In this document: positions 7,553 through 39,206 of the stretch, piece by piece | How the letters are laid out: the number at the start of each line of letters is the position of its first letter | Numbering within the stretch: the stretch's first letter is position 1 | Origin: Strongyloides papillosus | Taxonomy: Eukaryota; Nematoda; Chromadorea; Rhabditida; Strongyloididae | Assembly (NCBI GenBank): GCA_005656395.1 | Contig: SRSI01000029.1 | Coordinates: 1 to 64,000, forward strand | DNA length: 64,000 nt | Direction: 5' to 3' | The notes under the pieces: model-generated | What the model was told of the DNA's origin: nothing | The model's database searches: none | Seen by the model: the letters and a program-made list of their open reading frames with translations, nothing else | Program-made: the position numbers and the translations under genes

Positions 7553-7553
7553 T

Positions 7554-8531
7554 ATGATTTTTCTTGATAATTTTGAATATATGAAATTCCATCATATCTC
7601 TGTTACATAATATTTACAATTCAACTCGGATATAAACTTATTAGAAAAGAGAAAACATTTTCAAATCCATTTTATATAATAGTATTTTACAAAGGACTGA
7701 ATGATATAACTTTACAAACTACACTCTCTCTTTTAACAAAAATACCAGGAATTTCTGCTTTTCGTAATTTTTACTAAACGAATTCATATTTCTGTTCTAT
7801 TTTCTATCTAATTACGACTTTTTGTTATACAATAACATTTGAAGTAATGCTAATTATGTCATTGAATCGTTATATTGCAGTTGGAAAACCATTATTGTAT
7901 GAAAAAGTTTTTAAAAATTACCTTTTATGTATTTATATTTTTACCACATTAGTAATTGGAGGATTAATTGGAGTTATTTCTTCAAAATTTGATTGTACTT
8001 ATGTATACAGTAATACATTAGAATGATTATATATATCATATACTACAGATGATATTACATCATTTGTTTTAGCATATACATTCGGTTTATATATTCCATT
8101 AAAAGGAATTTCATTTATCTTGAATATTATAACAATAAGAAAACTAAAAGTTAAAAATTTTCTATCTAGCATGGGTTCATCTCCTGATGTAAGATTGTTA
8201 ATTTATTCATTATTTAGTTTTGCAATTGGGATTGTTTTTTACCAGTTTATTTTCCTAGAGTTATAAGTATTTTTACTGGCAATAAAATTTTTAATGTTGT
8301 TGGGACAGCTAGTTTACCATATATAATTGATATTGAAATATATGGTTCATTTTATTTTTCACTTTTTACAAAGTAAGTTTTGATTTTTAATTAAATAACA
8401 ATATGATATCTTTAAGCCCACAATTATTAAATATGTTTTGTTTTCGAAATATGGAAGGAGTTACACAGAGAAAGTTTGCAAAATTAACTAAAGCAATTTA
8501 TTTGGATGGTGCAAAGAAATCATCTGTATAA
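7554..8531 (+). pseudogene. Srv/Srg-like 7TM chemoreceptor pseudogene (array copy 6), cut from its leader by a transposon
   Basis: Receptor copy whose ATG (7554-7556) directly follows the right end of the 1.19-kb element, so its leader and promoter lie 1.2 kb away at about 6310-6358. The body is also broken: bases are missing soon after the start (GATAATTTTGAA where sisters have GATATTTTTCAA...), there are stops in the TM2-TM3 region, a TGA near 8023 and a one-base loss near 8240. Exon 2 is open and ends at TAA 8529-8531. Whether the insertion or the point lesions came first cannot be told. Confidence 0.85.
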
Positions 8532-8823
8532 TATTAGAAAGTTTTTATGAAATTTTTAATGTTTTTTGTTAGAACATTAGAAATTTTGCATGTGTATTTG
8601 GTTTTTTTTGTAGAAATATGTCAAGGTATTTAATACTATTAACTTTATTCATAAATAAAAAGATATTATTTTAAAATAAAAATTATTAATATCTACTAAT
8701 CACAACTTCCTTGTTTTTTACCATTATTAAATTAATATTTTCTAGGAAAAAATAAAACATAAACTTCATTTTTAATTTTTTTTTTACATTAGCAACTTTA
8801 AATTTATATTTTTTTAAATAACT

Positions 8824-9729
8824 ATGCATTTTTTTGATATTTTTCAATTTGTGTATGAAGTTCCTTCATATATCTGTTACATAATATTTACAATTCAACT
8901 TGCATATAAACTTATTAGAAAAGACAAAACATTTTCAAATCCATTTTATATATTAATGTTTTACAAAGGAGTAATTGATATAACATTGCAAACTACAGTT
9001 TTTCTTTTAGCAAAAACAACATTATTTTTATCTTTTTATGATTTCTTCCAAACGAATTCACATTTATTTTCTGTTTTTTATCTGTTCACGACTTTTTGTT
9101 ATTCAATAACATTTCAAGTTATGTTAATTATGTCACTGAATCGTTATATTGCAGTTGGACAACCATTATTGTATGCCCAACTTTTTCAAAATTATCTTGT
9201 ATGCATCTATATTTTTATTACAATTGTTATTGGAGGATCAATTGGAGTTATTTCTTCAAAATTTGATTGTTCTTATGCATACAATAGTACATTTAAAAAA
9301 TTGTATATGTCATATACTACAAACGGTGTTATACCATTTGTTTTAGCGTATACATTCGGTTTATATACTCCATTAATAGCAATTTCGTTTATTTTAAATA
9401 TTATAGCAATAAGAAGACTAAAAGTTAGAAATTTTAAATCAACAATGAGTTTATCAACTGATATGAGATTACTAGTTTATACATTATTTGGTTTTGGAAT
9501 GGCAATTGTTTTTTTATCAGCATATATTCTTAGAGTTGTGAGTATTTTTACTGGTAATAAAATTTTTAATGTTATTGAAACAACTAGTTTACCTTATATA
9601 GTTGATATTGAAACTTATGGTTCATTTTATTTTTCACTTTTTACAAAGTAAGCTTTTGTTTTTTAATTAAGTAGTAATATGATATCTTTAAGTCCACAAT
9701 TATTAGAAATGTTTTTTTTCAAAGAATGA
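8824..9729 (+). CDS. Serpentine chemoreceptor, Srv/Srg superfamily-like (array copy 7), short tail
   Basis: All seven helices are intact in exon 1 (8824-9647), with the Cys pair and MSLNRYIAVG. Intron 9648-9692. Exon 2 starts normally (NPQLLEMF) but one base is missing in the following T run compared with sisters, giving a TGA at 9727-9729. The predicted protein has 286 residues and lacks about 30 residues of the cytoplasmic tail. The receptor core would be complete, so it may still work, or it may be an early pseudogene or a homopolymer error. Confidence 0.75.
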
Positions 9730-10088
9730 AAATAGTTACACAAAGAAAGCCTGCGGTATCAACTACAGTGGTTTATTTGGATGGTGCAAACAAATCATGA
9801 ATGTAATATTATCAAGTTTTATTGAAATTACTAATGTTTTTTGTTAAAACATTAAAAAGTTTGATTGTATATTTGAAGTGTTTTTTTAGAAAAATGTCTA
9901 GGCATTTAATATTATTAACTCTATCAGAGATGGAAAAATATTATTTAAAATGTGAAACTACTAGAAATCATAATTTCATTGTTTTCTACCCTAATTAAAT
10001 TAGTATTTCTTAAGAAAAAATATTATATAAACTTTTTTTTTATTTTTTTTACATTAACAACTTAAAATATATATTTTTTTAAATAACT

Positions 10089-11075
10089 ATGAATCCTTTT
10101 GATATTTTTCAATTAGCATATCAAATTCCATCATATATCTGTTACTTAATATTTACTATTCAACTTGGGTGTAAAATTATAAGAAAAGAGAAAACATTTT
10201 CAAATTCATTTTATATATTAATATTTTACAAAGGAGTGATTGATTTAACTGTACAAACTACAATTTTTCTTTTAATAAAAATAGCAATAATTCCAGCTTC
10301 TCATGATTTTTACTATGCGAATTCATATTTATGCTTTATCTTCAATTTTATTACGATGCCTTGTTATTCAATAACATTTCAAATAATGCTTCTTATGTCT
10401 TTGAATCGTTATATTGCAGTTGGACAACCATTATTGTATGCAAAACTTTTTAAAAATTACCTTGTATGTATTTATATTTTTACTACTTTAGTTATTGGAG
10501 GAATTATTGGAGTTGTTTCCTTAAATTATGACTGTACTTATATATACAGTAGTACATTAAAAAGATTGTATATATCATTTACTAAAAGTAATATTATATC
10601 GTTTATTTTAGCATATACATTCGGTTTATATATCCCATTAATAGCTATTTCATTTATCCTAAATATTATAACAATAAAAAGACTAAAAGTTAAAAATTTT
10701 ATATCACGTATGGGTTCATCACCTGATATTAGACTATCAATTTATACATTGTTTGGTTTTGCAATGGCAATTATATTTTTATCAGTATATATTCTTAGAA
10801 TTGTTAGTGTTTTTACTGGTAACAAATCTTTTAATACTATTGGGACAGCTATTCTATCTTATATAATTGATATTGAAACTTTTGGTTCTTTTTATTTTTC
10901 ACTTTTCACAAAGTAAGTTTTTGTTTTTTTATTAAATAATAATATGATATCTTTAAGCCCACAATTATTAAAAATGTTTTGTTTTCGAAAAACGGAAGAA
11001 GTTAACAAAAGAACGCTTACGAAATCAACTAAAGTAGTAAATTTGGAAGCTATAAAAAAATTGTCAGCATATTAA
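10089..11075 (+). CDS. Serpentine chemoreceptor, Srv/Srg superfamily-like (array copy 8, intact)
   Basis: Last copy of the array, intact: exons 10089-10912 and 10958-11075 (45-nt intron), 313 residues. 7TM pattern, TM3/loop-2 cysteines, MSLNRYIAVG after TM3; the tail reads NPQLLKMFCF and ends KKLSAY. The 3' flank is like its sisters for about 60 bp past the stop and then becomes unrelated AT-rich sequence, which marks the right edge of the tandem repeat. Confidence 0.85.
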
Positions 11076-11130
11076 TATAAAATTTTAGTAAAATTAGTAA
11101 TGTTTTTTGTTAAAACATTAGAAAAGATTT

Positions 11131-11755
11131 GATATTTATAACAATAATATAATTAATTAATATCTAACAAAACAATTAAGGAATGTTATTACGAAAAAAC
11201 GAAAACATTTTTATATTCTAATATTTCTAAATAGAATTTAATTTTGTAGGAAACAGTAATTTACCTTTTTATTATTATAAATCAAAAAGTTAACTAAATT
11301 TGGTGAGAAAGTTAATTAATTATTATTTTAAAAATCATTAATCAAAGTAATATTAATTAAAATTTTACTAAAGTTTTTATGTGAATGAATTTTTTTTAGA
11401 TTACTTGTACTTTTATCAATGTATTAATAAAATTATGTATGAATATAATCATTGTCTGTTATTCAAAAAAAGTTAGCAATAATTTTGTAATGTGCATCTC
11501 AAACACAAATAAATAATGTTTTTTATGAATGCGGTTGAAGTTTAAACATAAAAAATTATTATCACTTTTTTAGGTATATAAACGTGCATTTCTTTAAAAA
11601 TAATTTGTTTGAATAATAGTATAAAGGATACAGAAATTATATCAAATTAATGTAAAGGTAAAACATTAATTTTTTAAGTATATTTTTTCATTAGACTATC
11701 AATAAAAATTATTATTGCAAAATTTATATTAATACTACATTAATATTTATTAACT
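11131..11755. other. Intergenic, no feature seen
   Basis: AT-rich spacer between the receptor array and the dehydrogenase gene. Nothing coding or structured was recognised on either strand. Confidence 0.6.
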
Positions 11756-12654
11756 ATGTATCTTAATAAAACTTTAAAAAAGTACTTCTCTACTACAATA
11801 AAAAATATGAAAAATATAGAAAAAATCAGTGTTATAGGATCTGGTGTTATGGGATCTGGCATTGGTCAGGTTTCAGCACAAGAAAAGTATAATGTAATCA
11901 TTACTGACAAAAACGAAGCGTCATTACATAATTCAAAAATTGTCATTTCAAAGTCTATAGATAAAGTGGCAAAAAAAAGTTTGGTGATAATTTACATGAT
12001 AGAGAAGTATTTAAGAATGAAGTTTTGGATAGAATAAAATTTACAACAAATCTTAAGTATGCTCTTTGCGGAACAGACTTAGTTATCGAAGCAATCACTG
12101 AAGATATCAATGATAAACAAAAATTATTTAAAATTATTGAAGAAAATACAAAAGACGATACAATATTAACAACAAATACATCATCTTTATCAATTGCAAG
12201 AATTAGTGGAAATTTAATGAATAAACAAAATTTTGTTGGACTTCATTTTTTCAATCCTGTTCCAGTTATGAAATTAATAGAAGTTATAATTACAGATAAA
12301 ACTTCTAATGAAGTTCTTGAGACTCTTATGAATTATGGAAATAGAATAGGTAAAGTACCTGTAAAATGTAAGGATATCCCAGGATTTATAGTTAATAGAT
12401 TATTGTATCCATATTTATTTGATGCTATTAGATTATATGAAAATAATGTAGCAAGAAAAGAAGATATTGATAAAGCAATGAAATTAGGAGCTTCATATTC
12501 CATGGGTCCTTTTGAGTTGTCAGATTTCATTGGTCTTGATATTATTGATAAAATCATGCAACAATACCCTGAGAAACACTCTAAAGTTTTGAAGGAACTT
12601 GTTAAGAATAATCAATATGGAATTAAAAGTGGAGAGGGATTCTATAAATATTAA
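11756..12654 (+). CDS. L-3-hydroxyacyl-CoA dehydrogenase, mitochondrial type (one frameshift)
   Basis: Oxidises L-3-hydroxyacyl-CoA to 3-ketoacyl-CoA with NAD in fatty-acid beta-oxidation. A basic, Ser/Thr-containing N-terminus fits a mitochondrial presequence. The Rossmann NAD motif GSGVMGSGIG follows from about residue 28. Further on come DLVIEAI, the catalytic-His motif GLHFFNPVP, PGFIVNRLL and the C-terminal GPFELSDFIGLD, in family order. The reading frame changes at an 8-A run (11971-11978): the first part runs to 12037 in one frame, and the rest, from KKFGDNLHD onward, is in the next. One extra A would give 299 residues, the usual length. No intron is needed. It is either an assembly or homopolymer error or a young pseudogene; the absence of other lesions favours the former. 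Confidence 0.85.
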
Positions 12655-13559
12655 TGTGTTCATTTATTCTACCTTATATACATTAAATCATTAACTTTTT
12701 TTTTCTGTTAAATGAAAAAAAATATATTATATAACTGAGATTAAATATTTTAGATATTTAAAATTGAACAACTTTGCTTTAATTAAAATTTAGTGATAAT
12801 TTATTATTTTCTTATTATCATACTATAATCACTACAGATGCTACTTTAAAATAGATTCAAATAATTTAGTAACTCAATACAGCATAAAATTTAATATTTT
12901 TAAAGTGCAAATTTTGAATTTTGTGTAAAATCTTTAAATAATTACATCTCATTTGCAACAACTAAAATAATTAATTATTCTTTATATTATGTTTTAAAAA
13001 TGATACTTAGTTTGCTTAACAATTTCGAAAGGTTGATTATATTGTGATAATATTAACAGTATTTTTTATTGTTGATAACATGTATTATATTTCAATTATC
13101 AATAAGTATATCTGAATGTTCTTTAGACATAAAACATGATATCGTAAAAAATATTTACAGGAAGTGACACAAAAAAATAAATGTCTACTCATGATTTGTA
13201 AAAACTTTAATATCAGAAATCATTATCTGTTTACAGTTAAGATTTTTTTGTTATGATTTACTAAAGTCTAAACAAACATTAAAACATTCAGGAATTGAAA
13301 ATGCATTCATACAAAAATATTAAGGAAAAAAATAAGGAACTTATAATAAATGATAAGGTAAACAACTGTAAAGAAAAGATAAAAGTGCACTTAATATTAA
13401 AAAATTGTTATGTATTAACTTCTATTATTGGGACAAAATTAAACTAGGATAAAGAAAAATCATAAAAAGTTTTTTAATAAAAGTTAAAAGGCATATATTT
13501 ACACATCATACAATATAAATATTAAAGCATTTTTAATTATTTCACACTCATTCTTAAAA
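12655..13559. other. Intergenic, no feature seen
   Basis: About 0.9 kb of AT-rich DNA between the dehydrogenase and the secreted-protein gene. Nothing recognised. Confidence 0.6.
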
Positions 13560-14559
13560 ATGTTATCAAAACTATGTATTATTATTCTTATGCTTATTGT
13601 AAAAATAAAATGTGATTGTAATGAATTTGGGATATATTCATATCTTGGAGTTGTTAATACATTCTATAATCGTACAGTCTCTTGCCAAGATGATAATGAA
13701 TCATGTGTTTATATATTTTTTGACATCCCTGATTTATCTACTGGTTATATTCAATCATGTTACTCAAAGATAAGAACTATTTTTAATGGTATTGTAAATA
13801 CACGTTTTGATGTTCAAGATTCTTTTTATAATTCTTACTGTGAAGAAACTGATACATATGAAATCGATTATTATTGTGAGGTAATTTATTATTAATAAAT
13901 AATTTTTTATAAATATTTTTAAGAATTACAATGATAAAATATATGTCAATAGTTCTTTATCGGGATTAAGTAAACTTTATACATATTGTTTTAATGATAG
14001 TATGGATATGAAAACTTGGGATTGGTCAAATTACCACAGAGAAGTACAAAATCATGTTGGTGTGATATGTGGTAATGATACGATGTGCTCAGAAGGATAT
14101 TGTGGACTGTATAAAAGAAGTGTTAATATTCTGATTGAGGGAGAATATGTAAGATCAATCAAAGAAGAACTATCATGTATTAATAATATTTATAATGAAA
14201 TTTATAAAGATTTCACAAATACAAATTTCAATCCAGTGTTTAGATTAGATTTACTAAAAGCTGCTTATATTTGTAACTCAAAAAGTGAGGGTGATTCAAG
14301 CATTACTAATAATTACAGTAGATATGCTTGGTACATAAAATGTTTCAACCCAAATAACGAAATTGATGTTGATAATGGAGTTGAAGCAGAAGTTGAGACT
14401 AGTCCTGAATCCGAAACAACAACGTCAACAATTGAAATTCTTGAAGAATCAGTCACTGAAGCTTTAGAATTAACCTATAATAACTTATCAAGTACCTCTA
14501 GAAATAATTTCTTTTTTATTTTCACTCTACCATTTATTATTACATTTTTTACTCACTGA
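13560..14559 (+). CDS. Secreted, probably GPI-anchored Cys-rich protein, function unknown
   Basis: Two open stretches (13560-13895 and 14002-14559) are one gene. Exon 1 is 13560-13880 and exon 2 13924-14559, split by a 43-nt intron (GTAATT...TTTAAG) in phase 0, giving 318 residues. An N-terminal signal peptide (LCIIILMLIVKIKC) is followed by a domain with more than ten cysteines, several potential N-glycosylation sites and many aromatic residues. Then comes an acidic Thr/Ser/Glu-rich stalk (about 265-295) and a hydrophobic C-terminus (FFFIFTLPFIITFF) ending just before the stop, typical of a GPI attachment signal. I do not recognise the family. The layout suggests a cell-surface or shed protein of a worm tissue; that is inference. 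Confidence 0.75.
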
Positions 14560-15755
14560 AAGATTACTAGATTTGTTTACTAATGTTTTGATTAAATAAA
14601 AAAGTAAAAGATATTAATCATGCTAAAAGAACAGATAAACCTAACAAATGTTTAGTATAATTTTTTTTATTTATATCATTACTTAAATATTAAAGATTTA
14701 TATTCACAACATTTGCAATTTAATAAGAAAACATTTGTTTCAATGGTACACAATATTATAATAACATAAATAAAAAGTTAATAATCACAAAAATGTTATT
14801 GTTATCCAATTATCATTGAATATTTTAATACTATCAATCACTTAAAATTAAAATAGTAGTATTCATTACCGGAAATTAGGAAAGCAATGTGATGTAAGAC
14901 AAAATTTTAATTTTTAGATAATCACTGATTAAGTTGATATTTTGCTTTCCAAGGTGATATATATACAATTTGTTTAATAATATATTATTATTTTTAATTA
15001 ATTTTTCTTAAAGTTATTATCAAGTGTAAATTATTTTTGTTTAAAAGAATAATCACTATTAAAAAGAACTTTTAAGCAATGGTCAATATGTATATGAGAG
15101 ATAATAAATCATTTGTTTCACGAATTTTGAGGTCTTTTTATTCTAATATACTTTATTTAAAAGTAAGATACCTATAAACACAATGGCAATTTATTATTAT
15201 TAAAATGAATTATATCATAGTTTTTATGATATCATTAAGTAATATTTTAAAATATTACATAACGAAATTATATTAAAATGTATTTTGATATAAGGAATAA
15301 AATAACCTATCAATTGCCTGTCAAGATCCTGAAATTTAAAACTTTGAAGTTGGCACATTAAGATTATTATGATTCATTTTAATGTTTAATTTTTACATAA
15401 GAAGGTAGTAAGATATTAAAGTTTATTAATGAATGAAGCATTACACACGCTTATTTTCGTTTTATTAAGGTGGAGATAAGATGGATCAAATTTTAAAATA
15501 GCTGTCATAATTTTTTTGATAAATTGTGAGAAACCTTTATGTTTCACTTACTTTGGATTACTTAAAAATTTGAGGTATCATTCATTTTTGATTATTCTAA
15601 CAATCATCTTTTCACGGTACATTTTTACATAAAACATCATCCTATAGTATAGTATACTTTTTGACTAACGACAACTTTTTCAATTTGGTTAAAAATATAA
15701 AAACAGGAAATTTTTATAATAAATTAATCGTTTAAATCTTATTTTAGTAATCACT
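14560..15755. other. Intergenic; likely promoter region of the TSP gene
   Basis: About 1.2 kb AT-rich. The only notable signal is TTATTTTAG at 15739-15747, eight bases before the next gene's ATG, which looks like a spliced-leader trans-splice acceptor. Confidence 0.4.
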
Positions 15756-18143
15756 ATGAGGTGGATTTTATTTTATAGTTTACTTATACTTGCAATTATA
15801 TGTATAACTTTCTCCGAATCAGGTAACGAAAATTTTAAATTTTTTTTACAAAGAAAATAAATATTTTTTTAGCAAGAATTCATGTTTCTAAACCAAAGAA
15901 GAACAAGGATGTTGAGACAACATCAAAACCAGAAGAAGAAGTCTCAAATGATAATAAGGTAGATGAAATTGAAGAACTTATTGATAATATCGAGAGTCAC
16001 TCAACAAATGACACCATCTTAGATAACATTGAATTTCTCCACGAGGAGGCTTCAGAAAATCAAGCCGTTCAAGATTTATGTACTCGTGTTCACAATAATA
16101 CTGCATTTGCAGGAGTAATCCCATACTCAACTAAAATTGTCAAAAACGCATTTGAATGTCAAAAGACATGCGTTCAAGATTTCCCACTTTGTGTTGCTGG
16201 TATGTTGATTAAATTAAAACCCCATTCAATAACTACATTTTCTATTTATAGTTGTCTTTTACTATGTACATAATAAAAAGCATGAACATTTATGTTACTA
16301 TTTTGATAAAAATAGTGTTGATGAACAAGTAACATTGATGGCTGAGGCACCAAAACATGAAAAAGACGTTATCCGTGCTTTAGAAATTGTTGTAAACTGC
16401 CATCAATTTGATCCAGTACCACCACCAAGTGATGAAATTATCTCATCATCTGATAAGGTACCAAGAAGTAAACGTCAACAAGGATTTGATGCTCCGATTA
16501 GAAGTGATGAAAATTGGTCAGATTGGTCATCATGCAGAAATTCAGATACCCAAGTTCGTTCTCAAGTCTGTGAGTATGGTAGAAACATTCAAAGGCGTGG
16601 TTGTCCAGCTCGTGAATACCAAGCTGCTCAACAAGAGTATGTTGCTGCTGCTGCTCAACGTGCTGCACCAACGGCTGCTTACCGTTACCCAGAACCAGTT
16701 CAAGCTCAATATCCACCAACTCCATACAATCATCAAGATTATTACCGTGCCCATCCAACACAAGCACCACCACAACCCTCAGAGGAGGAGCGTCAAAAAG
16801 CTTTGGAGTACGAAAGAAGAAGACAACAATATGAAGAACAATTAAAGGCATACAATTTACAACAACTTGAATTCCAACGCGCTGCCCAACAACGTCAACA
16901 ACAGCAACAACAATATCAACAACAGCAACAACAACATCAACAACATCATCAACAACAGTATTCTCAACAATCACAAGCACAACAATATCAACAACAATCA
17001 CAAGCACAACAATACCCACAACAAGTATATTCTGATGTTGAAAGACACCCAGCTATTCCATCGGCTGATCCATGTCCAGGAGATGCCTGTGAACAACCAA
17101 CATATGTAACTCCAGTACCAACACGCCCAGCACCACCTCCACCACCACAACCACCATGTCTTTCACAAGCCTGTCTTCCAGAAATGTCAGCACATATCGG
17201 AAGCTGGAGTTCCTGGTCTGATTATGGAATTTGCTCATGTACCTGTGGATTTGGTATCCAACAACGTAGAAGAGTATGCTCCTCAACTTATTGTATTGGT
17301 GGAAGTGAAATGGAAACTGTTGAATGTAACCTTGGTGAATGTCCAGGTGAATGGACATCATGGAGTGACTGGTCACAACCATCAGCTACATGTGGTCATG
17401 CTATTTCAACAAGAACAAGAACATGCTTAGGTGGAAGCAATTGTCCAGGAAGAGATTCTGAGGAGAAGTATGTTGATTTGGGTGTATGTCAATATTACAG
17501 TCCATGGTCTTCATTCGGTGAATGCAGTGTCACATGTGGTGATAATGGTATTAAGAGAAGATTCAGAAGTTGTATTGGTGGTACTGATTGTGATGGTCCA
17601 GCTGAAGAGGCTATTGCTTGTGCTGGAGATCCATGTGCAAGTTGGCAACAATGGAGTGAATGGAGTGCATGTTATCCAGATTGTGGAAGCTGTAGAAAGA
17701 CACGTACACGTGAATGTACACTTTTCAATGGGCAACCATCAGAAGATTGTCTTGGACCAAATGAAGAAGTAACAGTTGACTTTATTCGTAGTTGTTGTGA
17801 ATGGGAACCATGGTGTCCATTTAGCACATGTTCTAATGGACAAAGAACTCGTTCTAGAGTTTGTGTACGTCCTGGTGTTGGTTTTGATGATACTTGTTCA
17901 TGTCCAGGAAATGACACAGAAGTTGAGGCATGTGAAGAAGAGAGAAGACTTTATTGCTCATGGACACAATGGTGTGCTTTTGTTAATCTTGATATCCCAA
18001 GACCGTGTGAGCCAACAATAAGACAAAGAACAAGACAATGTGTTGGTGATATTGGATGTAGTTGTGAAGGAAGAGCTATTGAACGTGAATCAATTGAAGG
18101 ATTAGTTCCATGTACTACTCCAAGACCGGTTGTTCCATGTTAA
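15756..18143 (+). CDS. Secreted PAN-domain, polyQ and thrombospondin type-1 repeat protein
   Basis: Three exons, 15756-15822, 15873-16199 and 16252-18143, give 761 residues. Order: signal peptide (1-22); acidic spacer; a PAN/apple-like Cys domain split by intron 2 (about 90-200, with DLCTRV and CQKTC...CYYF); a possible furin site RSKR; a first WSDWSSC thrombospondin repeat (about 218); a Pro/Gln spacer with dense polyglutamine (about 320-395); then six more WxxW/Cys thrombospondin-type repeats to the C-terminus. The last two are diverged (WEPWCPF, WTQWCAF). No transmembrane segment follows, so it is probably extracellular matrix or cuticle-associated; that is inference. Codon use is richer in GC than its neighbours, suggesting good expression. 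The long open stretches in other frames are shadows of the repeats. Confidence 0.85.
16885..17030 (+). repeat. CAA/CAG trinucleotide-rich tract (polyglutamine)
   Basis: A run of CAA with interspersed CAG, CAT and TAT codons inside the TSP gene encodes a Gln-rich stretch with His and Tyr. A shorter imperfect repeat SQQSQAQQYQQ is duplicated in tandem within it. Such tracts often vary in length between strains. Confidence 0.8.
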
Positions 18144-19376
18144 TTAATTTCTTTACATAATTGCTTTCTTTAAATTTATCCATTTATTAATAGTTTTATG
18201 AGTTTAGCTTAAATTCCGAAAAATAAAAAAGTATAAATATTTAGAAGTTGAATATTATTTTATAGAGTGTGCCCTAACATCTTAATAGAGACAAATTTAT
18301 TGTTTTAGTTATTCATAAATTTACCACGTTTTTAAATGAACTATCAAGGTAAAATTTCTAGCATACTTTTGTACGAATTTCTAGTTTTAACAATAATCAA
18401 TCAAATTTTATTAATATAATGTTTCTATATGTATAGAGATAATTAAAATTATACACGTTAAGGGCATTACGTACACTATTAAAGTAAATAGGAAATTAAA
18501 TAATTTTTGATTTTACATGTTTTAAATTAAATATCGTTGTTTAACTATAAAATTTTAATGCTTTATAAAGCAATGCATATTCATTAATGATAATGCAAAA
18601 AACTGTTAGAAAATAATTGTATATCACTTAATAAGCTCTGATTTCTTAAAATAAACCTTTTTAAATAACATTATTTAAAAATAATAGTACTTAAAACGAT
18701 AGAATATTATTTTTAAATTTTTGTAAATGTGTCAAAAGATTAATCCCAACTACAAACTTCACATAAATTGAAGGAAAAGAACGAAGAAATATGTATGTGT
18801 AAGAATTTAATACAGATCGATTTAGTTCATGTTTTGTTACATTTATGTACAAACTTTTGATTATAAAACTTAAATTGTACTTCAAAAACTAAATCAATGT
18901 TAAATGAAAAGTTGCAATAGATTTAGAGATAAAATTAGAACTAAAATGTTAAATATTTCCTATCATTTTAATTCTGTCATTAATTTCCGTGGTTATTGAA
19001 TTATTTTGTATTGATAAGTTAAGTTATTTTTTGTTTAACATTATATTTAATTTTTATTTTCAATAAATAAAGGTTAATATGTCGATTATTCTCAATATAC
19101 GCCTTTAGTTTAAAAAAATTTTGAATTGATAGAAAGAATAAAAAGCTATAATTTGTTTACCAAACTATTTTAATTGTTAACGTTCTGTTATACGATTTAT
19201 TAAAATTAAAAAATTCTAAATATTTTTCAAATGTTATGGAAATGTTTTCATTCATACAATTTGGAAGGTTATTATTTTGAACACTATTCAATATTTAAAA
19301 TATATAATTTTTCATAGCTTATTTTTTCATGTTTAATAAATTTTCCTCAAAATTACATTACTGTTGTAATAAGTTT
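18144..19376. other. Intergenic, no feature seen
   Basis: 3' flank of the TSP gene and spacer, AT-rich. An AATAAA-like signal lies near 18221. A 64-codon minus-strand ORF (18691-18885) has no recognisable protein character. Confidence 0.5.
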
Positions 19377-19595
19377 TTAACAACATCCACATCTCATATT
19401 ATCACAGCATTTAACAGGCTAAAATAATAGTAAAATAAAAGCTTTTTTTGTGATACTTACTCTTAATTTTATAAAACCAAGTATTTTACAATGTCCATAA
19501 CAGCCCCATATGCATAGTTGACCTCCTCTAGTTTCTGATAATTGAATTAAAGACAATAATAAATAAAAAAATAATAGATATATTTTAACATACAT
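19377..19595 (-). CDS. Small secreted eight-cysteine peptide, two exons (too short for ORF cut-offs)
   Basis: On the minus strand, exon 1 (19595-19461, 45 codons) has a strong signal peptide (MYVKIYLLFFYLLLSLIQLS) followed by TRGGQLCIWGCYGHC. A 42-nt intron (19460-19419) has a GTAAGT donor and a TATTTTAG acceptor. Exon 2 (19418-19377) continues in frame as PVKCCDNMRCGCC and stop. The mature peptide of about 35 residues has cysteines spaced C-x3-C-x3-C-x12-CC-x4-C-x-CC. Intron size and splice sites match every verified gene in the window. I do not recognise the family; the shape resembles disulphide-knotted secreted peptides (antimicrobial, signalling or venom-like scaffolds), but function cannot be inferred. 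No paralogue is seen here. Confidence 0.65.
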
Positions 19596-20800
19596 TATTA
19601 AAACTTTATTTACCTTCTAGAAAATATATAATATGAAATAGTTATCCGTTTTAAATTTATATAATGGTTTAATTAATAAGGACGTGACGAGTAATTTTTA
19701 TTCTACTTTTAATAATTGAAATATTTGATAATATAAAATCTTTTTCATTGGAGAATTTAAATAAGAAGTTAAAAAAAGGGCGTGAGATTCTCAAAGTCTT
19801 GTAAAGTAGATTTTGTACTATTTATAAAAACAAAAACCCGAGTTCGAAACACAGTACAAACTTTGTTAGTGGTTTGTGTTGCTAAAGAATATCGGATATC
19901 AAAGTTGTGGGAGATTCATTGGTGATAGTAAAATTCTATCATCAATTGCTAGTCCTTCCAACATTTTTATTTATCATTTAAAAAAAAATTTAATTAGAAG
20001 TGATTGACAAGAAATGTTATTACAATTATGGCCTTTTTAATTAACTATGTTGCTTTTTTTGTATAATAGATGGATGTTAACAACTCGATTATGTTTTAAA
20101 ATTGCGTAGGTGATCTTAAGAAATATTTAACCACATTTTATTAAAGTTATGAGAAGTGTAACCGATAATTATCGCCATCACGGACGATCAAAGATTATTT
20201 GTTTTTAATTTACTCCAAAATCTACAATTGATGATATATTAGGCTAAAAGAAATTTTTATCTTTTTATATAGATATTTTTTATATAAAAAATTTAATTAT
20301 TTAAATAATTTGCGTGGAAAGAGTATTCTTCCTGATCTTTTTACTTCAATTTTAATGATATGACATATATTACTCCGTAGTATCAACACTTTAGACATAC
20401 TTTATTGTTATCTAGGTAATTATACATTTATTACTAACTTAAAATCTACAATAAATCCTACATTTTTGTCTCATACTACACTGTCACTTTTAAAATTCTC
20501 AGTTGGAAAAAGTTTTAAAATTGGTAATATGTAGTAGCAGAGGTTTAAATAACTTCTTTTAGAAGAAAAAAAAGCATACTGCACCGAAGATTAGAAATTT
20601 TATTCTTTTTAAATTTATTATATTAATTATTGCCGGATTTATTTAAAAGAAGTTCAAAAATAATGTTTATTAAAATTTAAAAATCATATTTCAAAATATT
20701 ATTTTATTGATGTAAAATTTGATATCTCGTCAGTGATTACTACTGTATTTTTAGGTACATGTACCCACTTTTATTTTAGTTATATTACTCCTTTCTGGAC
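19596..20800. other. Intergenic, no confirmed feature
   Basis: AT-rich spacer, likely holding the promoter of the small peptide gene on the left and of letm-1 on the right. A short hairpin (ATTGGTGATAG/CTATCATCAAT near 19918-19946) and a tRNA-like word GAGTTCGAAAC near 19840 occur, but neither builds a full RNA gene. Confidence 0.4.
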
Positions 20801-22157
20801 ATGTTATCATTCACCAAGAGGGCTGTTTTTTTAGGTCGTGGGTTTTATGTAAATTCTAAATTTTTACTGACACCTTCTAATAACATTCACCCATATCATG
20901 GACTCCTTGTAAGATGTATTTCAAATGAAAAAAGAGCAAAACTTGAGGAAACATTGTTGATGTTAAAGAGTGACTTAGAAAAAAAACAGGAAGAAAAAAA
21001 AGAAAAAGTATGTTTTATTTAGTTTCAGCTCAATATTCATGTTTCTTTAGACTTTATCTCAGGTAGTAGAAAAGAAACCACTTGGTAAAAGAATTGTTGA
21101 TGAATTGAAACATTATTACCATGGCTTCAGACTGCTCGCTTTAGAAACACGAATCTCTATTTATTACCTATGGAGAATGGCAAAAGGAGAAAAACTACTA
21201 AGAAAAGAAAAACAACAGCTTTCGAGGACAGTTGCAGATCTTTTTAGATTAGTGCCTTTTTCAGTTTTCATAATTGTTCCTTTTATGGAATTAGCTTTAC
21301 CTATTTTTATAAAACTTTTTCCTAACATGTTACCAAGTACCTTTCAAGAGGCATCAATAGAAAAAGAAAAAATTAGAAAACAAGCTGAGATGCGTAATGA
21401 GATGGCTAAATTTTTACAAACAACTTTAGAGGAAGTTGGTTTGTCAAGAAAAAAGAAGACTGATGGAAAAGCTCCAGCTTCATTGGAGTTTGCTAATTTT
21501 ATCAAATCAGTACGAGAGGGAGATGGATATGTTAGCAACGAGGATATTTTTAAATATTTGAAATGTTTTGAAGATGAAATAACATTGGATAATTTAGCTA
21601 TGAGTCAATTACGTGCATTGTGCCGTTTGTTAGGTATTCAACCTATAGGATCCCCTGAAATTTTACGTTTTCAATTGAAAATGAAGTTACGTGAATTGCA
21701 GTCGGATGACAAACTAATTATTGCGGAAGGTGGTGTTGATGCTCTTAGTGATATTGATGTTCAACAAGCCTGCAGAGCTAGAGGAATGAGAGCTCTCGGA
21801 GTAAGTGAAAGAAGACTCAGAAGGCAACTTAAACAATGGTTAGATTTATCATTAAATAGTAAAATCCCACCAACGATGCTCCTACTCTCTAGAGCTTTGT
21901 ATTTCCCTGAACATATGAACTTTACGAAACGAATGAAAGTTTTGTTATCTGAATTACCAAAAGAGGTTGCTGATGAGATGAGTCAGAAACTTACAGAAAT
22001 AGAGGGAGGAAAGATTAAATACGAGGCTAGATTAGAACTAATTAAAAAATTAGAAGAAACAATCAAGGATGAGAGAATCTTTGAAGAGGCAGCTAAAAAG
22101 AAGCAAGAAATAGACAATTCTAAAAAAACTAAAAGTGACGAGGAAACAAAAGCCTAG
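20801..22157 (+). CDS. letm-1: LETM1 mitochondrial inner-membrane cation/proton exchanger
   Basis: LETM1/Mdm38 family, needed for mitochondrial K+/H+ or Ca2+/H+ exchange and cristae shape. Exon 1 is 20801-21007 and exon 2 21051-22157, with a 43-nt intron in phase 0, giving 437 residues. The N-terminus is basic and Arg/Ser-containing (presequence). A coiled coil at about 45-70 is followed by the hallmark block: YYHGFRLLALETRISIYYLW, then the single membrane helix with the family motif RTVADLFRLVPFSVFIIVPF and the loop LFPNMLPSTF. The matrix domain follows, with LRALCRLLGIQP and RARGMRALGVSERRLR, then a coiled coil and a charged tail. It is shorter than vertebrate LETM1 and no EF-hand is seen. 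It converges on the CHMP5 gene. Confidence 0.93.
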
Positions 22158-22562
22158 AAAACTGCTTCAAAATACGTGTTTTAGAAAATATTAAAAGACT
22201 ACCTTCTCCTGAATTAATGTTTATAAACAAATGTTATCAAATTTTCTTTAAAAATTTTGGTTTGACAAAGCAACATTTTACTTCTATTAATCCTTAAAAT
22301 TTTAATAAATTCTATGTAAAGATCTTTCTTTTTCTAAATATAATTTTAAGTTAACGCAGAATAACCAATTAGCAGCCTGATAATTTACTGATGATTAAAA
22401 ATAAACGGAACTTTAAGTAAATAAAATTGTTTGTAATTTTTATACGACAAATAATAAAGTTTCTTTTGTTGATAAACTTTATAATATATATTTTAATTTA
22501 ACATTTTTACATTGACTTCTTTTAAATAAGCGTCATTAATGAAAGGGTACATGGATAAAAAG
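22158..22562. other. Convergent 3' flanks of letm-1 and the CHMP5 gene
   Basis: Short AT-rich spacer with an AATAAA at 22452-22457 that could serve letm-1. Nothing else seen. Confidence 0.5.
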
Positions 22563-23301
22563 TTATGCTGATATCTTAGGTAAACCAAATTCATCAACAG
22601 CAATTCCATCTTCCGTCTTCTGAAACAAAATATCATAAAATAACTTCAATAAACTTACTCTCTCGGCTGATGGTACAGTTGATGGTACCTTTGGAGCATT
22701 TAATGCTTCATCCAAATAACTGGTATCCTCATCAAAAGCCAATTCATCACCCAATGCTTCCAACTCTGCCTCCAACTCATTTTCATCAATATCAGGTGTA
22801 TCATATTGTCTTGACATAGCATCTTGGATCTCATTATGCATATCAAGCATATCCTCCATCTCATCATGTAAATTGTCAATTTTATCTATATTAATTTTTT
22901 TAAATTCTTTTTTCATTGCTACTACACCATGTTTCATTGCAGCAACAGTATTTTGAGCATCTTTCATTCCCTCCAGAGCAAAGTTAGTTTGTTCCATGTT
23001 AAATGCTTGAGTATCTAACTGATCTTTCTGTGACTCATACATCTTTTTTTGTTTTAAAATTCTAAATTATGAAATGATAAAAAGATGTTACAGGGACGTA
23101 CCTTAAAGCTTTCTGCTTAACACTATTCTTTGCTGGACCTTCTCTCATTTTTTTCATTTGGTCTTTTAATTTAACTAACTCACCATCGAGTTTTGAAATC
23201 TTCTTTTCAATGCTTTCACCACGAGCATTGATATTTCCAACTGCATCATTTAAACTTGGTGGTGGTGCTTTTGGTTTTCCTGTACCAAAAATTCTATTCA
23301 T
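22563..23301 (-). CDS. vps-60: ESCRT-III subunit CHMP5/VPS60
   Basis: Snf7-family protein that helps ESCRT-III disassembly by binding LIP5/Vta1 and regulating Vps4 during multivesicular-body sorting. Exon 1 is 23301-23102 and exon 2 23061-22563, separated by a 40-nt intron, giving 232 residues. The join restores [13 protein letters not shown]. It matches animal CHMP5 end to end: [17 protein letters not shown] start, [20 protein letters not shown] helix 1, the acidic [13 protein letters not shown] region and the C-terminal DEFGLPKI. Without splicing the two halves look like separate ORFs. Confidence 0.95.
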
Positions 23302-24464
23302 ATTTTACGCAAATAGACTAAAAAAATTGAATTATAAAAAATAGTATTGAAAAAGTTAACAATGATTGAATGTATTTATGAGTAAATAACATTGACTGAC
23401 ATTTTAACCAAGACTATCGTTGTGGGATTTTAAGCAATACGTTTCTTAGCAATATGTAATTTTACTAAAAATTAGTATGAAAATACAAACAAACTTCTAA
23501 ATATTATTTTACTTTTTTTAAGGCTTGGCGTTACAATGATTATCAATATGTTGTTAGAAGGGTTTTACATACGTATTTGTATTGCAGTTTGAAATAATTT
23601 ATAATGATGGTATTTGGTTTATCAGTAACTGTTTATTTAATCTCTGCTTACTCATTCACATTAACAATTTAACATAGTTGTTATAGAAATTGCATTCAGA
23701 GGTATATGATTTCTTTAATATGTGCTTCATTAACATTAATAAATATTCTGAAAGATAGTATTTGAAATTTTAAAATTACAGATCATTAAAATTGGGGATT
23801 TTTTTACTCTTAATAATAAAAATTTTATATAAATATCTATTATTTTAAGAAAGACATTAAAACTTATCCAAATTTTTCCATCAAATTCAAATTATTAGTA
23901 ATCTTAAGATTATAAAATAATATAAAATTAACCATATCGTTTTCACCGTACATTTTTTATCAACTTTGATCAGAAATGACGTTTCAATGACTTAAAGATA
24001 ATGGCATTGAAAAATTTCTTTATTTATACTTTATTCCTTTTATCAAAATACGTTAAAAATAAATTAATACCATAGAATTATTCATAAAATTATTACTATA
24101 TTTAACAAATTATCAACAGTCCTTATTCATAAACGATCACATGATAAAACAACTATACTGGAAATAGCGAAAAGAAACTTTGTTGAAAATTAACAATCTA
24201 TAAACTATTAAATACAAAACTAAATGAAATAATAAAAATATTTTTACAACCATCTACATGATATTTTTAAATTTTAGATCATTTTATATATTATCACATT
24301 TGAAGAAATTAAGAGAAGTATCCAACATCGGATTGATAAGTCTCCAGATCTAATTTTTTCCTTAAAATAATTGTCTATCTCACCTACTAGTATCTTTATC
24401 TGTCTTTAAAACCACTAGCAAGTTGAAAATTACTGTTTTCTCTTATTGAATTACTACTAGCAAT
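23302..24464. other. Intergenic, no feature seen
   Basis: AT-rich, likely containing the promoter of the CHMP5 gene at its left side. Faint protein-like words upstream of the PINCH remnant (after about 24300) are too decayed to assign. Confidence 0.45.
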
Positions 24465-24784
24465 TTTATTGTGAGAAACATTTTACAAAATTTTATAATC
24501 CACATGTTTCCGTTGTGAAAAATCATGAATTGGTGAAACATTTATAGCTCTCAAAAAAACATGGTGTTTAAAATGCTTCGGTTGTCATTTAAATGATAAA
24601 AAAATTACCCATAAGAGTAGATTTTATGATTTTGACATGAAACTAAAATGTAAGAAATGTAATGGTAAATTTCCAACTGAATTATAGAAGAGAATATTTG
24701 ATAGATTAAAGGAGAGAAATCAAATAGCTGTGGAACAACAGAAGAGGTCTATGAGTCCCACTTTTGGGGAATATAATATATAAA
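24465..24784 (+). pseudogene. PINCH (unc-97-like) LIM-domain remnant
   Basis: The frame ending at the TAA 24782-24784 reads ETFIALKKTWCLKCFGC, then FYDFDMKLKCKKC and KFPTEL, an in-frame TAG (24686-24688), KRIFDRLKERNQ and RSMSPTFGEYNI. This is the order of the last LIM domain and C-terminus of PINCH/LIMS (UNC-97), the adaptor of integrin attachments. One base over, just upstream, YCEKHFTKFYNP matches the end of LIM4. A TGA lies near 24526. With at least two stops and a frame change this is a pseudogene fragment. The functional gene is presumably elsewhere. Confidence 0.75.
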
Positions 24785-25136
24785 TTTTAATCTTTTTATA
24801 TGTATGAATCATAATGTTCTTTATTAAAATTATTTCCTTTTAACTGCCTTTTAATAATATTCAACATTTTATCTTAAAAAGAAAAAAATAAATATCATGA
24901 ACTAAGGCATAAAAAAATTATTAGATTTATTATTGAAGCTAACCAGTTTAAAGTACCTTAAATATTAGCACAAGCTACAAGTGGCCCCTGTGAAAAATAA
25001 TACTATGAATCCTCTAATAACTTACAACAATATTATAACAAAAATACTTAATAAACGTTTTTATTTTATACTACACATGAAAAGATATTACAATTAATTA
25101 CATATATTATTCAAAATTAGGTTTATAATTATTAAG
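24785..25136. other. Intergenic, no feature seen
   Basis: 3' flank of the F-box gene, AT-rich, nothing recognised. Confidence 0.5.
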
Positions 25137-26972
25137 TTAATTCTCTAGCCAACACGGTGGACTAAATATCGCCATGAACCTTTGATAAAAGGTAACTGAC
25201 TTTTGGACAATAATTTCAACAACTTTATGTGGATGATAATATGCATCATCAAGGTTCTTGACGATGAACATTCCACATTTCCTTGGAGTTCCTTTTTCAA
25301 TGTTTCTCAATATTGTGAGATCCTTCTCCTTTGGTGACTCCAAAGCCAAATGTAAGAAGTCTATATTTGGCCACCTATTTATCCGTGGTGAATTCCTGAT
25401 ATCCGATCCAACAAAGTCGACAAATGAATTGATGTTCTTTGAATGGCTTAAGAAAAATATCGACAAGTACTGGAGGTTTTTGAAATTTGATATGATTCTT
25501 TGAATGGGTATATTTGGAGAGGATAGACTTTCAAGTGACAGACTTTTTATCCTGCTGCATCTTCTGGCTAACAGTCTAACATCTTCCTCCCTAAGCATTT
25601 TGCAATCGGTGAATTTGACATTTTCCAAACTAGCACTTAATGTGTTAATAAGATTCTTAACGTCAGCTGTTGTTGAGAAGATGTTCATTGAAAGCTCCAA
25701 TGTGACTAAGTTCATCATAAAATTTAACAGATGTGGAAATGGAGAGGCATAGGATTGTGGTGGCTTATTCCAACTGTTGTCGCATGTAACCTTGAAGGTC
25801 CTAAACCCCTTAAGCTCCAGTAGATTGTTGAAGATCCTAGGCACTCTTTCGTTTTCTTGGAAGTCGTATCTTGTAGGTCCGTTTTTTGATAGAACTATGT
25901 CAACAAAGTATTCGACATTTGTTTCCTGATGGAAGACAGTTAACCAATTGTACTGATCAATGAACTCTATTACATTGTACGACAGTATTTGGTTAACAGA
26001 TGCTCTAATATTTTTAAAACATCTGCTTAATACTAAAACCTTCATTCCTGAGTTTTCCAATTCCGGTAAATTTGTCATAAAATACGGTGAAAGGACTAAA
26101 GTTTCAAAGCGTTTCTCCGGTATAAAGTTTGCCGCTTCATAAATCCATTCTATTTCACTAGGACGGCAACATAATTCAATTTCCTTGACACTTGGTGGTA
26201 TGTATTCAGATATTTCTTCAATATGTACGTTAGGTGGTTCTATTGAAGTTCCAGGATGGCAAAGGAATTGTATAGTTGTTGGTTTTAGGCTTTTACAAAA
26301 GTCGAAGATTTTTAAATTAATATCCACTTGATTTAGAGGATTATACGTAACCCTTTTGACACTTTCGAAGCAATCCAAGCTTTTAAAAGAAGACAGATGC
26401 CTATCATTGAGGCCTTTCAATTCGATTGTCCTGATTCTACAGCTGTTGGACACAATATTTGTCGTGTGCATCTTCAAGTAGTTTGTCGTCTCAGAAATAG
26501 CCTTCGGAAGATTGATAATTAATGTTGATCCTTGAAATTTTATTATATTTCCACGGCTGGGTATTCCACCAACATGAAAAAAATGATGACGACTGGTGCT
26601 TCTGTCGATGCAGTCGTATGGCGGTTTGAAATTATCCCCATCCTTACACAAAGCGTCATATGATTTGGAGACGAGCCTTAATTTATTCCTCTCGCTAACC
26701 TTTGAAATATTGCCTATTATTCTGGCCATTAGCTGGGGGTCATGTCCAACGAGTTCTCTTGCTTCAGATTCATTCCTTAACGTTATCGATTTACTTTCTC
26801 TCCTTTTAAGACGGAAGTGGACTATAAGTAAGTAGATTATGTAATGATAATTTTGAAGTAGTTATAACTTACAATTTCTTCTTTTTAATTCTTCATCACT
26901 AACCCTTGGGTTAGGAATAGATGGTCCGTTGCTGTCACACTCCATATCGTTACTTGAATCCTTCGTAGACAT
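25137..26972 (-). CDS. F-box and leucine-rich-repeat-like protein
   Basis: Likely substrate adaptor of an SCF (Skp1-Cullin-F-box) ubiquitin ligase. Exon 1 is 26972-26873 and exon 2 26821-25137 (51-nt intron), 594 residues. The exon 1 start [12 protein letters not shown] is preferred because its frame joins the long exon and completes the F-box helix set at about 58-92 ([16 protein letters not shown]...[10 protein letters not shown]). Starting at the ATG 26729 would remove half of it. The rest is a diverged solenoid with LRR-like segments ([37 protein letters not shown]) at about 360-500. GC content is higher than in neighbouring spacers. The substrate is unknown. Strongyloides-type nematodes have many such diverged F-box genes, so a one-to-one orthologue is not claimed. 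Confidence 0.75.
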
Positions 26973-27025
26973 TGAAGAACCAAAAAAAGTGAATAAATAG
27001 TTGAGAATATATCTAAGGCTCATTA

Positions 27026-27075
27026 CAAGAGTTGTGATAATTTGTTGTTATGTAGTAAATTATCACAAACTCTTG
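27026..27075. other. Near-perfect hairpin upstream of the F-box gene
   Basis: Arms CAAGAGTTGTGATAATTT (27026-27043) and its complement (27057-27075) pair over 18 bases with one bulged base and a 13-nt loop. It lies 54-103 bp upstream of the F-box gene start, so it could be in its leader or promoter. It might also be a tiny MITE relic. Confidence 0.6.
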
Positions 27076-27253
27076 AGACGCCTGTGGTTTGGCTAATTGT
27101 GATTTTTTCTCCTAAAGTTATCATATATAAAATCAAAATTTTAGTGAAATTTGAATATTAACTTAATTCAAATTTCTCCCTAAAATTTAAATTCACGAAA
27201 TTTTGCATATTATTATAACAATATATTGTGACCTTTTTATATACTCGTTACAA

Positions 27254-27415
27254 TTATAATAAAATTTTTGCCGATTTTGTTAGTATTTGTCTCGCATTGA
27301 TTCTTAATAGCATAAAAATATAATTTTCGTCAACAGTCGTCTTCTTTTCATCAGCTGGCAATCGTTTGTTCAATATTGGTTTTAAGGGTACAAAGTAAAT
27401 CGTCAGAAGAAGGGT
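27254..27415 (-). pseudogene. Coding-like fragment, unrecognised
   Basis: An open minus-strand stretch of about 53 codons has no ATG start, is preceded by TGA and ends in TAA. It reads like real protein (LKPILNKRLPADEKKTTVDE, then NYIFMLLRINARQIL). I cannot name it. It may be the C-terminal scrap of a duplicated gene, or an exon of something unsolved. Confidence 0.3.
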
Positions 27416-27848
27416 TCATGAATTTTTGAGCAATGGGTATTCATGTTTTTATAATCGAATTCGTAACATTTAACAAAGAGAAGGATATTAATTTCTAATT
27501 ACTTCAATAAAACAATTTTATAATGAAAAAATGTTTAATCGTGAAAAGAATCCTGCAACCTGTTTTTGATGTTATATCGTTTGATGACAAAATAAAAAAA
27601 ATGAAACAATGCATTACACTTTATTAATTAATAAATATTAGTACAGTAAATATGAAGAGAATTATTGATAATCTTGGGATTGTGGTGCTTACTATATCTG
27701 TATACTAAAGGCTTACTATCAAAAATAAGATTAACGCCAATTCCTCATTATTATACACATATTTTTTTTTCAAGAATATATGTAGAGAAACTTTCTTTAT
27801 ATGGTCTTTTATTACTATATATCTTTAAGTTAATTTAATGTATGTAAC

Positions 27849-28170
27849 ATGGGTGCAATAGAAGTATACCTTTCTTCTGCTTCAAATTCCTTCCCAGAAT
27901 TACATTCACCAAGATACAAAGAAGATGAAAAATTTCTAAAATTCCAAAAGATGGTCACGAAGGTTGTCCATACAAAATGTTCGGTGAAGAATTTTTAGAT
28001 TAAATAAGCCTTTAAAAGGCATTTATGATCAAAAAATGACTAATTATCATGCTTTTAGAATAACAAAAGTATTTTACAAGTTTTCATCATATTAGAAAGT
28101 GATTCACAAACTTATTTCAACTAAAGGATTCTGAATGTCCATAGAAAACACTTGAAAAGGGGCTTCAAAA
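27849..28170 (+). pseudogene. Possible DNA primase large-subunit (PRIM2) C-terminal remnant
   Basis: Near 27953-27998 one frame reads GHEGCPYKMFGEEFLD, like the HGCPF segment around a Fe-S cysteine in the PRIM2 C-terminal domain. After a stop and frame change, LNKPLKGIYDQKMTNYHAFR and ITKVFYKF follow (28000-28085), resembling the next PRIM2 helices. An earlier 48-codon ORF from ATG 27849 (ELHSPRYKEDEKFLKF) may belong to the same relic. Several stops make it non-functional. The family match rests on a short motif and is tentative. Confidence 0.35.
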
Positions 28171-28353
28171 GTATTTGTTCAAAATATCCAAGAAACCTTA
28201 AGTATTGATAATTAACAATTACAATATTTTAAATATTCGATCTTTTTATTGTAATTAATAAATGTTCATTTATTTTTATAAAACTACAATTCGAAACATC
28301 TTTGCAAGATAAAAAATTTTAAAGTATTCATAATAATACAATTGATAAATGCA

Positions 28354-28960
28354 TTAAAAATTATATGCGTTTAAGATTAAAAAAATATATTTTTTGGCAT
28401 TAAACATATTAAGTTTATCTATCAATGGTCTTGCTGTTTCTTCAGCTCCTATTCTTTCATCGAGACTAGGCTCTTGATTTTCTTTAATTTTAATATAATC
28501 TAAATAAGTTTTTGTTCCAGGTAAAGTTTCTGTCTTCAACAATTTATTTCCCCCTTGATCTCTTTTTGTATAAAAAGAACCCAATTGCAACAAAAATACC
28601 TAAGACGATAAAAACAATAACGGCAATTATTGAATCTGTTGCTTCAAAACTATTTCTTGGAACAAAAATCCTATTCGAGCTATAACCACACAGAAAATCT
28701 AAACATACCGATTTGACGAATACATTTTATATAAAAAAGTGAGTATATTTGATATCATTTTGTAGACTACGTCTTACTCATTTTGTTTGATCGGTTATTT
28801 TAACATCACCTGCAGTTGGTAATTTTTGAAGATGGTCAGTCAAACTGACGTGTTTAGGTTTTTTGTGTATTACATAGAAATAATTAGCCACTGTAAATAT
28901 TTCACTAGAAAAATTCGAAAGACTATAGAATCTAATATATTTTATGGAACATTAGATGGT
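28354..28960 (-). pseudogene. Remnant of a single-pass membrane protein, multi-exon
   Basis: Minus-strand pieces join into a plausible type I membrane protein tail. An ectodomain piece (FYSLSNFSSEIFTVANYFYV, then KHVSLTDHLQKLPTAGDVKI; about 28930-28785) comes first. An intron-like GTATGTT...TATAG follows, then SFEATDSIIAVIVFIVLGIF, a membrane helix (about 28665-28590) with KKR after it. A cytoplasmic tail then lies in the next frame (KLLKTETLPGTKTYLDYIKI, then RIGAEETARPLIDKLNMF) to 28354. The frame changes at a GGGGG run near 28553, and a stop precedes the ectodomain piece. I do not recognise the family. The short ORF 28354-28593 is the tail alone. Confidence 0.5.
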
Positions 28961-29391
28961 AATTCATTAAATACAATGGCTTTTATTATAGATATAGGTT
29001 AGAATTTATAGGAATCACACACTTTCTTTAGAGAATTTACAGAAAACGACAAAAACGTTTAAATTTGGATAAAATTAGATTTAATAATACAACTTTTTCA
29101 TATTTTTAGAATATATAAATGAAATTTTACGTAGCAATTGGCAATAGTATGATGTGGTGTGGTTTTGTTTCCTTTAATTTATGTGATTTTCTACTGTAAA
29201 TTACAGATTATTTTCTGAAATAAGTTTGATAATATGTAGATTTCACATTTCCTTCTAGAATATAAGATAAATTTGATTAGAATGTTATATGCTTCTTATG
29301 TTTCTACGAAAAATAGCTAAAATGTTGTAAAAACGATATTTTTTCTACGGAAATATTATATTTCTCCAGAAAAGATTAATGTAAAATTTTA
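28961..29391. other. Intergenic, no feature seen
   Basis: AT-rich DNA between the membrane-protein remnant and the dispersed repeat. Nothing recognised. Confidence 0.5.
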
Positions 29392-30376
29392 AGTAAATTG
29401 CTTTTCAAACATTTAAGTAATTTTTTCAAAGCTAAAATCTAGACGTATTTAACAAATTAAATGTATATTTTTAAGAAGAATGTGTATAATAAGATTCTTT
29501 AGATTGTCAGTAATGATAAAAAGAAGAAGTCAGTAATTTTCAAGTTCTTCTGAGGTTTTAAAGGCAGAGTAAGATATAAGTATAATGAGGTAAACAATTA
29601 TGTAAACATAAAGTTAAACGTGGAGTTTTATTATATCCCAAGTTTAGTACTTTATTAATTCCTTCAAGCATGATAATAAATAAAATGATCTAAAATTTTT
29701 AAGGTCATAAAAACGATTAAGTTCTTTAAAAATGTTCATGAAGTTATATAATTCTATTAGAATTCCATAATTTTCGCAGAAATAACTAAAAAATATTATT
29801 ATTTTATATAAATTATTCCTATGAAAAGACATAATTTTATAGAGTAATTGTTCAATGACAATTTGTTTTGTAGTTGGTACGGAGGAAATAGTTTTTAAAA
29901 TTAGAATTCCTTCGTTTAGATTCATTTCACTGACTGAATTTACCTTAGTGAATCGTTTTTTGTATCAGAAACACCCTACTGAAGCTTGCTTTATATGTAA
30001 ATCCTTCATTAATATTTTAATAAATATTAAGCCTTGGTAGGATACCTATATTGAAAATTTATATAATTTTAGTTTTATAAAGATACCCATCGTGACGACC
30101 AAAATTTTTCTAAAACACCATGTTTTCCATGTCTAATCAGTAGTTTCTTTTCTACTGATTATCTTTTAGTTATATTATGCTTATTTTAAAGTTCAGATTC
30201 TACTCTATATTTTTGTCATAAGATCATTCTCAGAAGTTGATTTTAAACTAAGTTATAGATGATGAAACACAGACCATTTTTCAAACAACTTTCTTGAATT
30301 ATAAATCTAATAACTTTTAGTAGCGGTTCGTAGGATGATCAAAAGCAATTTATATCAAGAAATATTATCAATCAAG
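29392..30376 (+). repeat. Dispersed ~1-kb repeat, copy A
   Basis: Matches 34733-35716 in the same orientation along its whole length, by eye around 80% identical. Best-kept blocks include AAGATTCTTTAGATTGTCAG near 29490, the stretch near 29570 and TTAAAGTTCAGATTC near 30190. The minus strand keeps a 93-codon ORF (29925-29644, containing ELYNFMNIFKELNRFYDLKN), but copy B is broken at the same place, so this is more likely a decayed duplicated gene or an unclassified transposon than a live gene. No terminal inverted repeats or target duplication were seen. Confidence 0.7.
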
Positions 30377-39130: not shown

Positions 39131-39206
39131 TGAATCTATTTTTACTACATTTCAAATACAAAATTGTAAATTATAACACTTGTTAAAACACTATAATATT
39201 CAAAAT
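39131..39206 (+). promoter_or_regulatory. Conserved upstream block of astacin 2
   Basis: Same block as upstream of the other astacins (AATCTATTTTTACTACATTT, then AACACTTGTTAAAACACTAT), 227 bp before the ATG at 39358. Confidence 0.45.

Follow-up and report, generated by a model that had tools for sequence, protein, structure and literature searches.

A candidate two-exon gene encoding a predicted secreted peptide with eight cysteines in Strongyloides papillosus

Positions 19377 to 19595 of a 64,000-nucleotide stretch of contig SRSI01000029.1 (the window) raise the question of whether a short spliced reading frame in AT-rich DNA of Strongyloides papillosus is a real gene for a secreted cysteine-rich peptide, and what such a peptide would resemble. 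A sequence-only reading had placed a two-exon gene here; when the sequence was read again, the coordinates and strand it gave, the length of 58 codons, the intron of 42 nt and the spacing of the cysteines all proved exact. The candidate gene lies on the minus strand (19595–19377) and its spliced product has 58 residues. Exon 1 (19461–19595, minus strand, 45 codons) would encode a leader of about residues 1–22 or 1–24 and contains the first three cysteines, C-x3-C-x3-C. The phase 0 intron of 42 nt, GTAAGT...TATTTTAG (19419–19460, minus strand), ends in an in-frame TAG that would be read if the intron were retained, and we infer that it is spliced out. Exon 2 (19377–19418, minus strand), of 13 codons plus TAA, carries cysteines 4–8. 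The complete pattern, which starts at residue 28, is C-x3-C-x3-C-x12-CC-x4-C-x-CC, with cysteines C28, C32, C36, C49, C50, C55, C57 and C58.

The N-terminus has a lysine near the start, followed by a core rich in leucine and phenylalanine. The sequence-only reading called this a textbook signal peptide. The check on this was limited to a crude hydrophobicity rule, by which a hydrophobic leader was found, and the −3/−1 rule, which allows cleavage after residue 15, 22 or 24. The predicted mature part is cationic, with a computed pI of about 8.7–8.9 and a charge at pH 7 of about +3.8 to +4.8. Two weak signals flank the coding part, both present in the second copy described below. A possible TATA element, TATATAAA, is located at 19656–19663 (minus strand), 61–68 nt upstream of the ATG; the two strands of the window have 56 occurrences of this 8-mer. 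A possible polyadenylation signal, ATTAAA, weak as such in AT-rich DNA, is located at 19332–19337 (minus strand), about 40 nt past the stop.

The neighbours of the candidate gene are two plus-strand features, a thrombospondin-repeat gene that ends at 18143 and a LETM1-like ORF that starts at 21105 with its first ATG at 21177. The ORF list has no further ORF of at least 100 residues between these two. Two introns of the thrombospondin-repeat gene were placed by homology with an S. venezuelensis protein. They are 50 and 52 nt long, GTAACG...TTTTTTAG and GTATGT...ATTTATAG, and both end in TAG. Because both locally placed introns (n = 2) are short and end in TAG, a 42-nt intron ending TTTTAG, with borders GTAAGT and TATTTTAG, is plausible and in keeping with the introns nearby. 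Elsewhere in the window, two adjacent plus-strand ORFs at 13560–14559 resemble parts of one secreted protein; the first has a leader-like start and several cysteines, and neither has a Pfam match. Five long astacin-like ORFs of 424–512 residues lie in tandem at 36570–51413, and the one scanned contained astacin and CUB domains.

A second copy of the region was found on contig C37. Over window positions 10016–33515 and beyond, the contig of the window (C63) is for the most part collinear with the start of C37, at 96–97.5% identity. C37 carries the region reversed, as two pieces of 97.5% and 97.1% identity which together span window positions 10016 to 29406 and are flanked by less similar matches, in part inside repeated gene arrays. 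The match extends to C37 position 58, inside a gene which we take to be poly(A)-binding-protein-like, recognised without a family search, and within which C37 ends. This gene, the LETM1-like gene and a Snf7 family gene are present on both contigs. The simplest reading is that the C37 copy is probably the other, unpurged haplotype; a recent duplication is the alternative. Several further features of these contigs were recorded. Stop codons were counted within two of the C37 matches: one TGA for the Snf7 gene (window 22563–23042), and a TAG plus a TAA for the poly(A)-binding-protein-like gene (window 56183–58069). Another LETM1-like gene, 77% identical, is located at C2:1736646–1737596. Tandem single-exon 7TM chemoreceptor-like genes occupy 2572–10916 of the window, with a Pfam Srx match for the one scanned (10089–10916), and a related array is present on C37.

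The candidate gene and its C37 copy are 98% identical over 251 nt. Exon 1 has no indels and two substitutions, one synonymous and one Ile/Thr; exon 2 has a single substitution (Met/Ile) and no indels; the intron has no substitution and a 1-nt deletion in the copy. All eight cysteines and both splice borders are intact in the copy, and the spliced peptides differ at 2 of 58 residues. Left unspliced, the copy is shifted in frame and gives 78 residues with an unrelated tail that has no cysteines. Substitutions numbered 3 in 219 nt of the gene against 26 in 600 nt of the 300-nt flanks (p = 0.052). Against the nearest flanks, a choice made post hoc, the comparison was 3/219 with 15/181 nt (p = 0.001), and for the exons alone it was 3/177 with 26/600 nt (p = 0.12). 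The lower divergence of the gene than of its flanks hints at constraint and is no proof of it.

Relatives were sought in several ways. With the spliced peptide as query, no candidate with three common 5-residue words was found in a library of 5.8 billion proteins, the candidates being limited to 0.55–1.75 times the query length, so that an ortholog inside a longer model would escape. A control query, the thrombospondin-repeat protein, gave 26 matches including S. venezuelensis, S. stercoralis and Parastrongyloides trichosuri, with 94% identity to an S. venezuelensis-named cluster and 86% to an S. stercoralis-named cluster. The null result carries some weight since the control retrieved other Strongyloides proteins. 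We estimate that an ortholog annotated at a similar length and more than about 65% identical should share enough words; orthologs are therefore unannotated, fast-evolving or absent. The claim that the gene had been overlooked is partly borne out by the lack of a library match despite the presence of other Strongyloides proteins there, while the annotation of its own assembly lay outside the comparison. No Pfam family was matched at E up to 10, a search in which the HMMER filters discard most weak matches. Two PDB matches at E = 1.2, both to ExbB and over residues 17–37, were taken as chance. Searches of its own genome (58.2 Mb, 79 contigs) with DNA at E up to 0.001 and with protein at E up to 10 hit nothing besides the window and C37, the exon-by-exon search being weak for a 13-codon exon. 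Among the papers listed on Strongyloides secreted or cysteine-rich peptides, ASABF and hepcidin, none describes the peptide in its title or the opening of its abstract, and the available parts of PMC10676819 and PMC5979966 contain nothing on it.

Function had been left open by the sequence-only reading. The order of the cysteines points to an arrangement like that of defensins, but the peptide departs from the strict nematode consensus. Hepcidin also has eight cysteines, with CC, a single C and CC clustered at the C-terminus. The C-terminal cluster of the peptide is similar and the spacing differs; hepcidin was considered for this cluster and dropped, as Pfam, which includes a hepcidin model, gave no match at E up to 10. 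In the six-cysteine spacing of the inhibitor cystine knot, cysteines 3 and 4 are separated by a short gap, against which, by eye, 12 residues follow the third cysteine here.

According to the available part of PMC5116183, eight-cysteine peptides of molluscs and nematodes use C2 to C6, C8, C9 and C10 of a ten-cysteine CS-alpha-beta reference array. In our own mapping, C28, C32, C36, C49, C50, C55, C57 and C58 correspond to C2, C3, C4, C5, C6, C8, C9 and C10, respectively. The nematode CS-alpha-beta or ASABF type (MND) has disulfides C2-C6, C3-C8, C4-C9 and C5-C10, in a fold of a helix plus two strands. In the defensin-like reading, the leader would be cut near residue 22–24 and a cationic product of 34–36 residues with four disulfides would be secreted. 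In the proposed pairing, C32-x3-C36 would form the helix clasp with C55-x-C57, and the remaining disulfides would join C28 to C50 and C49 to C58. Such a compact cationic peptide would act extracellularly, its targets being soil or gut microbes or the interface with the host.

The likeness to nematode ABF/ASABF (mollusc/nematode defensins) consists of eight cysteines, a small cationic mature part, a leader by crude rules only, C-x3-C with a later C-x-C, and the order of the cysteines. Unlike these defensins, the peptide has a 12-residue loop before the fourth cysteine, adjacent CC twice and no [GS]-x-C; its n-loop of 3 is at the lower limit, and there is no sequence-family match. The nematode CS-alpha-beta consensus, as given in the part of PMC3210614 available, is C-X(3,18)-C-X(3)-C-X(7,9)-[GS]-X-C-X(4-13)-C-X-C. 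The peptide fails both the strict and the G/S-free versions, with 12 residues before the fourth cysteine and not 9–11. It matches when the middle gap is widened to 6–16 and the next gap to 3–13; this array, widened after the peptide had been seen, was passed by 2.8% of mature-part shuffles. The C of GXC is generally at reference position C6 (PMC5116183, in the part available). No GXC is present at C49 or C50, the residues two before them being V47 and K48. Compared with the sponge ASABF in the accessible part of PMC3210614, three of the seven gaps are equal (x3, x4, x1) and four are unlike (3, 12, 0 and 0 here; 6, 4, 4 and 2 in the sponge). Scorpion CS-alpha-beta peptides of the maurotoxin type, which also have eight cysteines, have a cysteine pattern in common with mollusc and nematode peptides (PMC5116183, same part). 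The comparison with them was made by pattern, and in contrast to them the peptide has no such PDB sequence match and no sign of venom.

The product is most likely secreted and cationic, an antimicrobial peptide or some other peptide that acts extracellularly. That it would work like an eight-cysteine nematode or mollusc defensin is a possibility that we put somewhat below even odds on this analogy; it may be called defensin-like at most and we do not class it as a defensin. About as likely, the eight-cysteine peptide is real and secreted but differs from defensins in fold and role: it may signal or act on the host, for instance by binding an ion channel or a receptor, or it may be like hepcidin in its C-terminal cysteine cluster. 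The departure from the strict CS-alpha-beta consensus, the lack of a paralogue besides the C37 copy, which would suit a specialised peptide, and the parasitic habit of the genus speak for this; it is without a family match and no target is directly indicated.

Whether there is a gene at all was addressed with chance controls. The scan required an ATG, a hydrophobic stretch nine residues long close to the N-terminus, a product of 40–75 residues, a donor GTAAG, GTGAG, GTAAA or GTATG, an acceptor TTTTAG, TTTCAG, TTATAG or TTAAAG and an intron of 35–80 nt, and cysteines after residue 20 were counted. These rules were written with the candidate already known and are biased in its favour. In the window, the candidate gene was the sole model with at least 5 cysteines. 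In 1668 simulated 64-kb windows (order-3 Markov), 6 models had 5 cysteines and none had 6 or more. For a second simulation, of 49.3 Mb at order 3 and 50.95 Mb at order 5, the training set was the window together with 20 further stretches of 10 kb; in the resulting 100.25 Mb the maximum was 6 cysteines, reached once. The scan of this training set itself, 264 kb of real sequence, gave three one-cysteine models and the candidate with eight, and in 303.6 kb (the window, four C37 stretches and 20 others) only the candidate and its C37 copy had at least 5. A single-exon scan of the same 303.6 kb for 6 or more cysteines found none. Eight cysteines against a simulated maximum of 6 in 100.25 Mb bears out the earlier judgement that the arrangement is unlikely by chance, subject to the post hoc rules.

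A chance arrangement or a decaying gene with no functional product would agree with the lack of a homologue, with only two near-identical copies for comparison, with two of the three exon substitutions being non-synonymous, with the exon-only p = 0.12 and with the post hoc scan rules. Simulations that reach 6 cysteines at most, and two copies that both have no stop, exon indel or cysteine loss, make this reading improbable. Still less probable is a retained intron, giving only a single-exon, hydrophobic, three-cysteine peptide of 58 residues or no product: the unspliced frame is likewise open for 58 codons, up to the TAG of the candidate acceptor, but in the C37 copy it shifts into the unrelated 78-residue form whereas splicing gives near-identical peptides, and five cysteines in 13 codons, in frame right after a good acceptor, would be a coincidence. 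We put the probability that the two-exon gene encoding a secreted eight-cysteine peptide is real at roughly 0.85, with the chance control and the second genomic copy backing this predicted product.

Judged from its sequence, the locus very probably carries a gene for an orphan secreted cysteine-rich peptide; it is a good candidate and not a new kind of biology. More tentatively, the peptide might be the first member of a family found only in Strongyloides or in part of the genus, a member that gene prediction missed, that has an eight-cysteine array unlike those of the nematode antimicrobial groups described so far, and that is secreted at the host or soil interface. Short spliced cysteine-rich genes lie under the thresholds of gene finders. 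According to the available part of a survey from 2023, which covered the antimicrobial peptides of 134 nematode genomes, its BLAST/HMM method may overlook fast-evolving peptides in distant species; null results were also checked by tBLASTn, and the search missed two CS-alpha-beta genes that had been known from ESTs of Parastrongyloides trichosuri (PMC10506718). The discovery is modest and testable, one probably real gene with no database relative. As a concrete missed candidate that can be tested with existing RNA-seq, it would show a way to find more.
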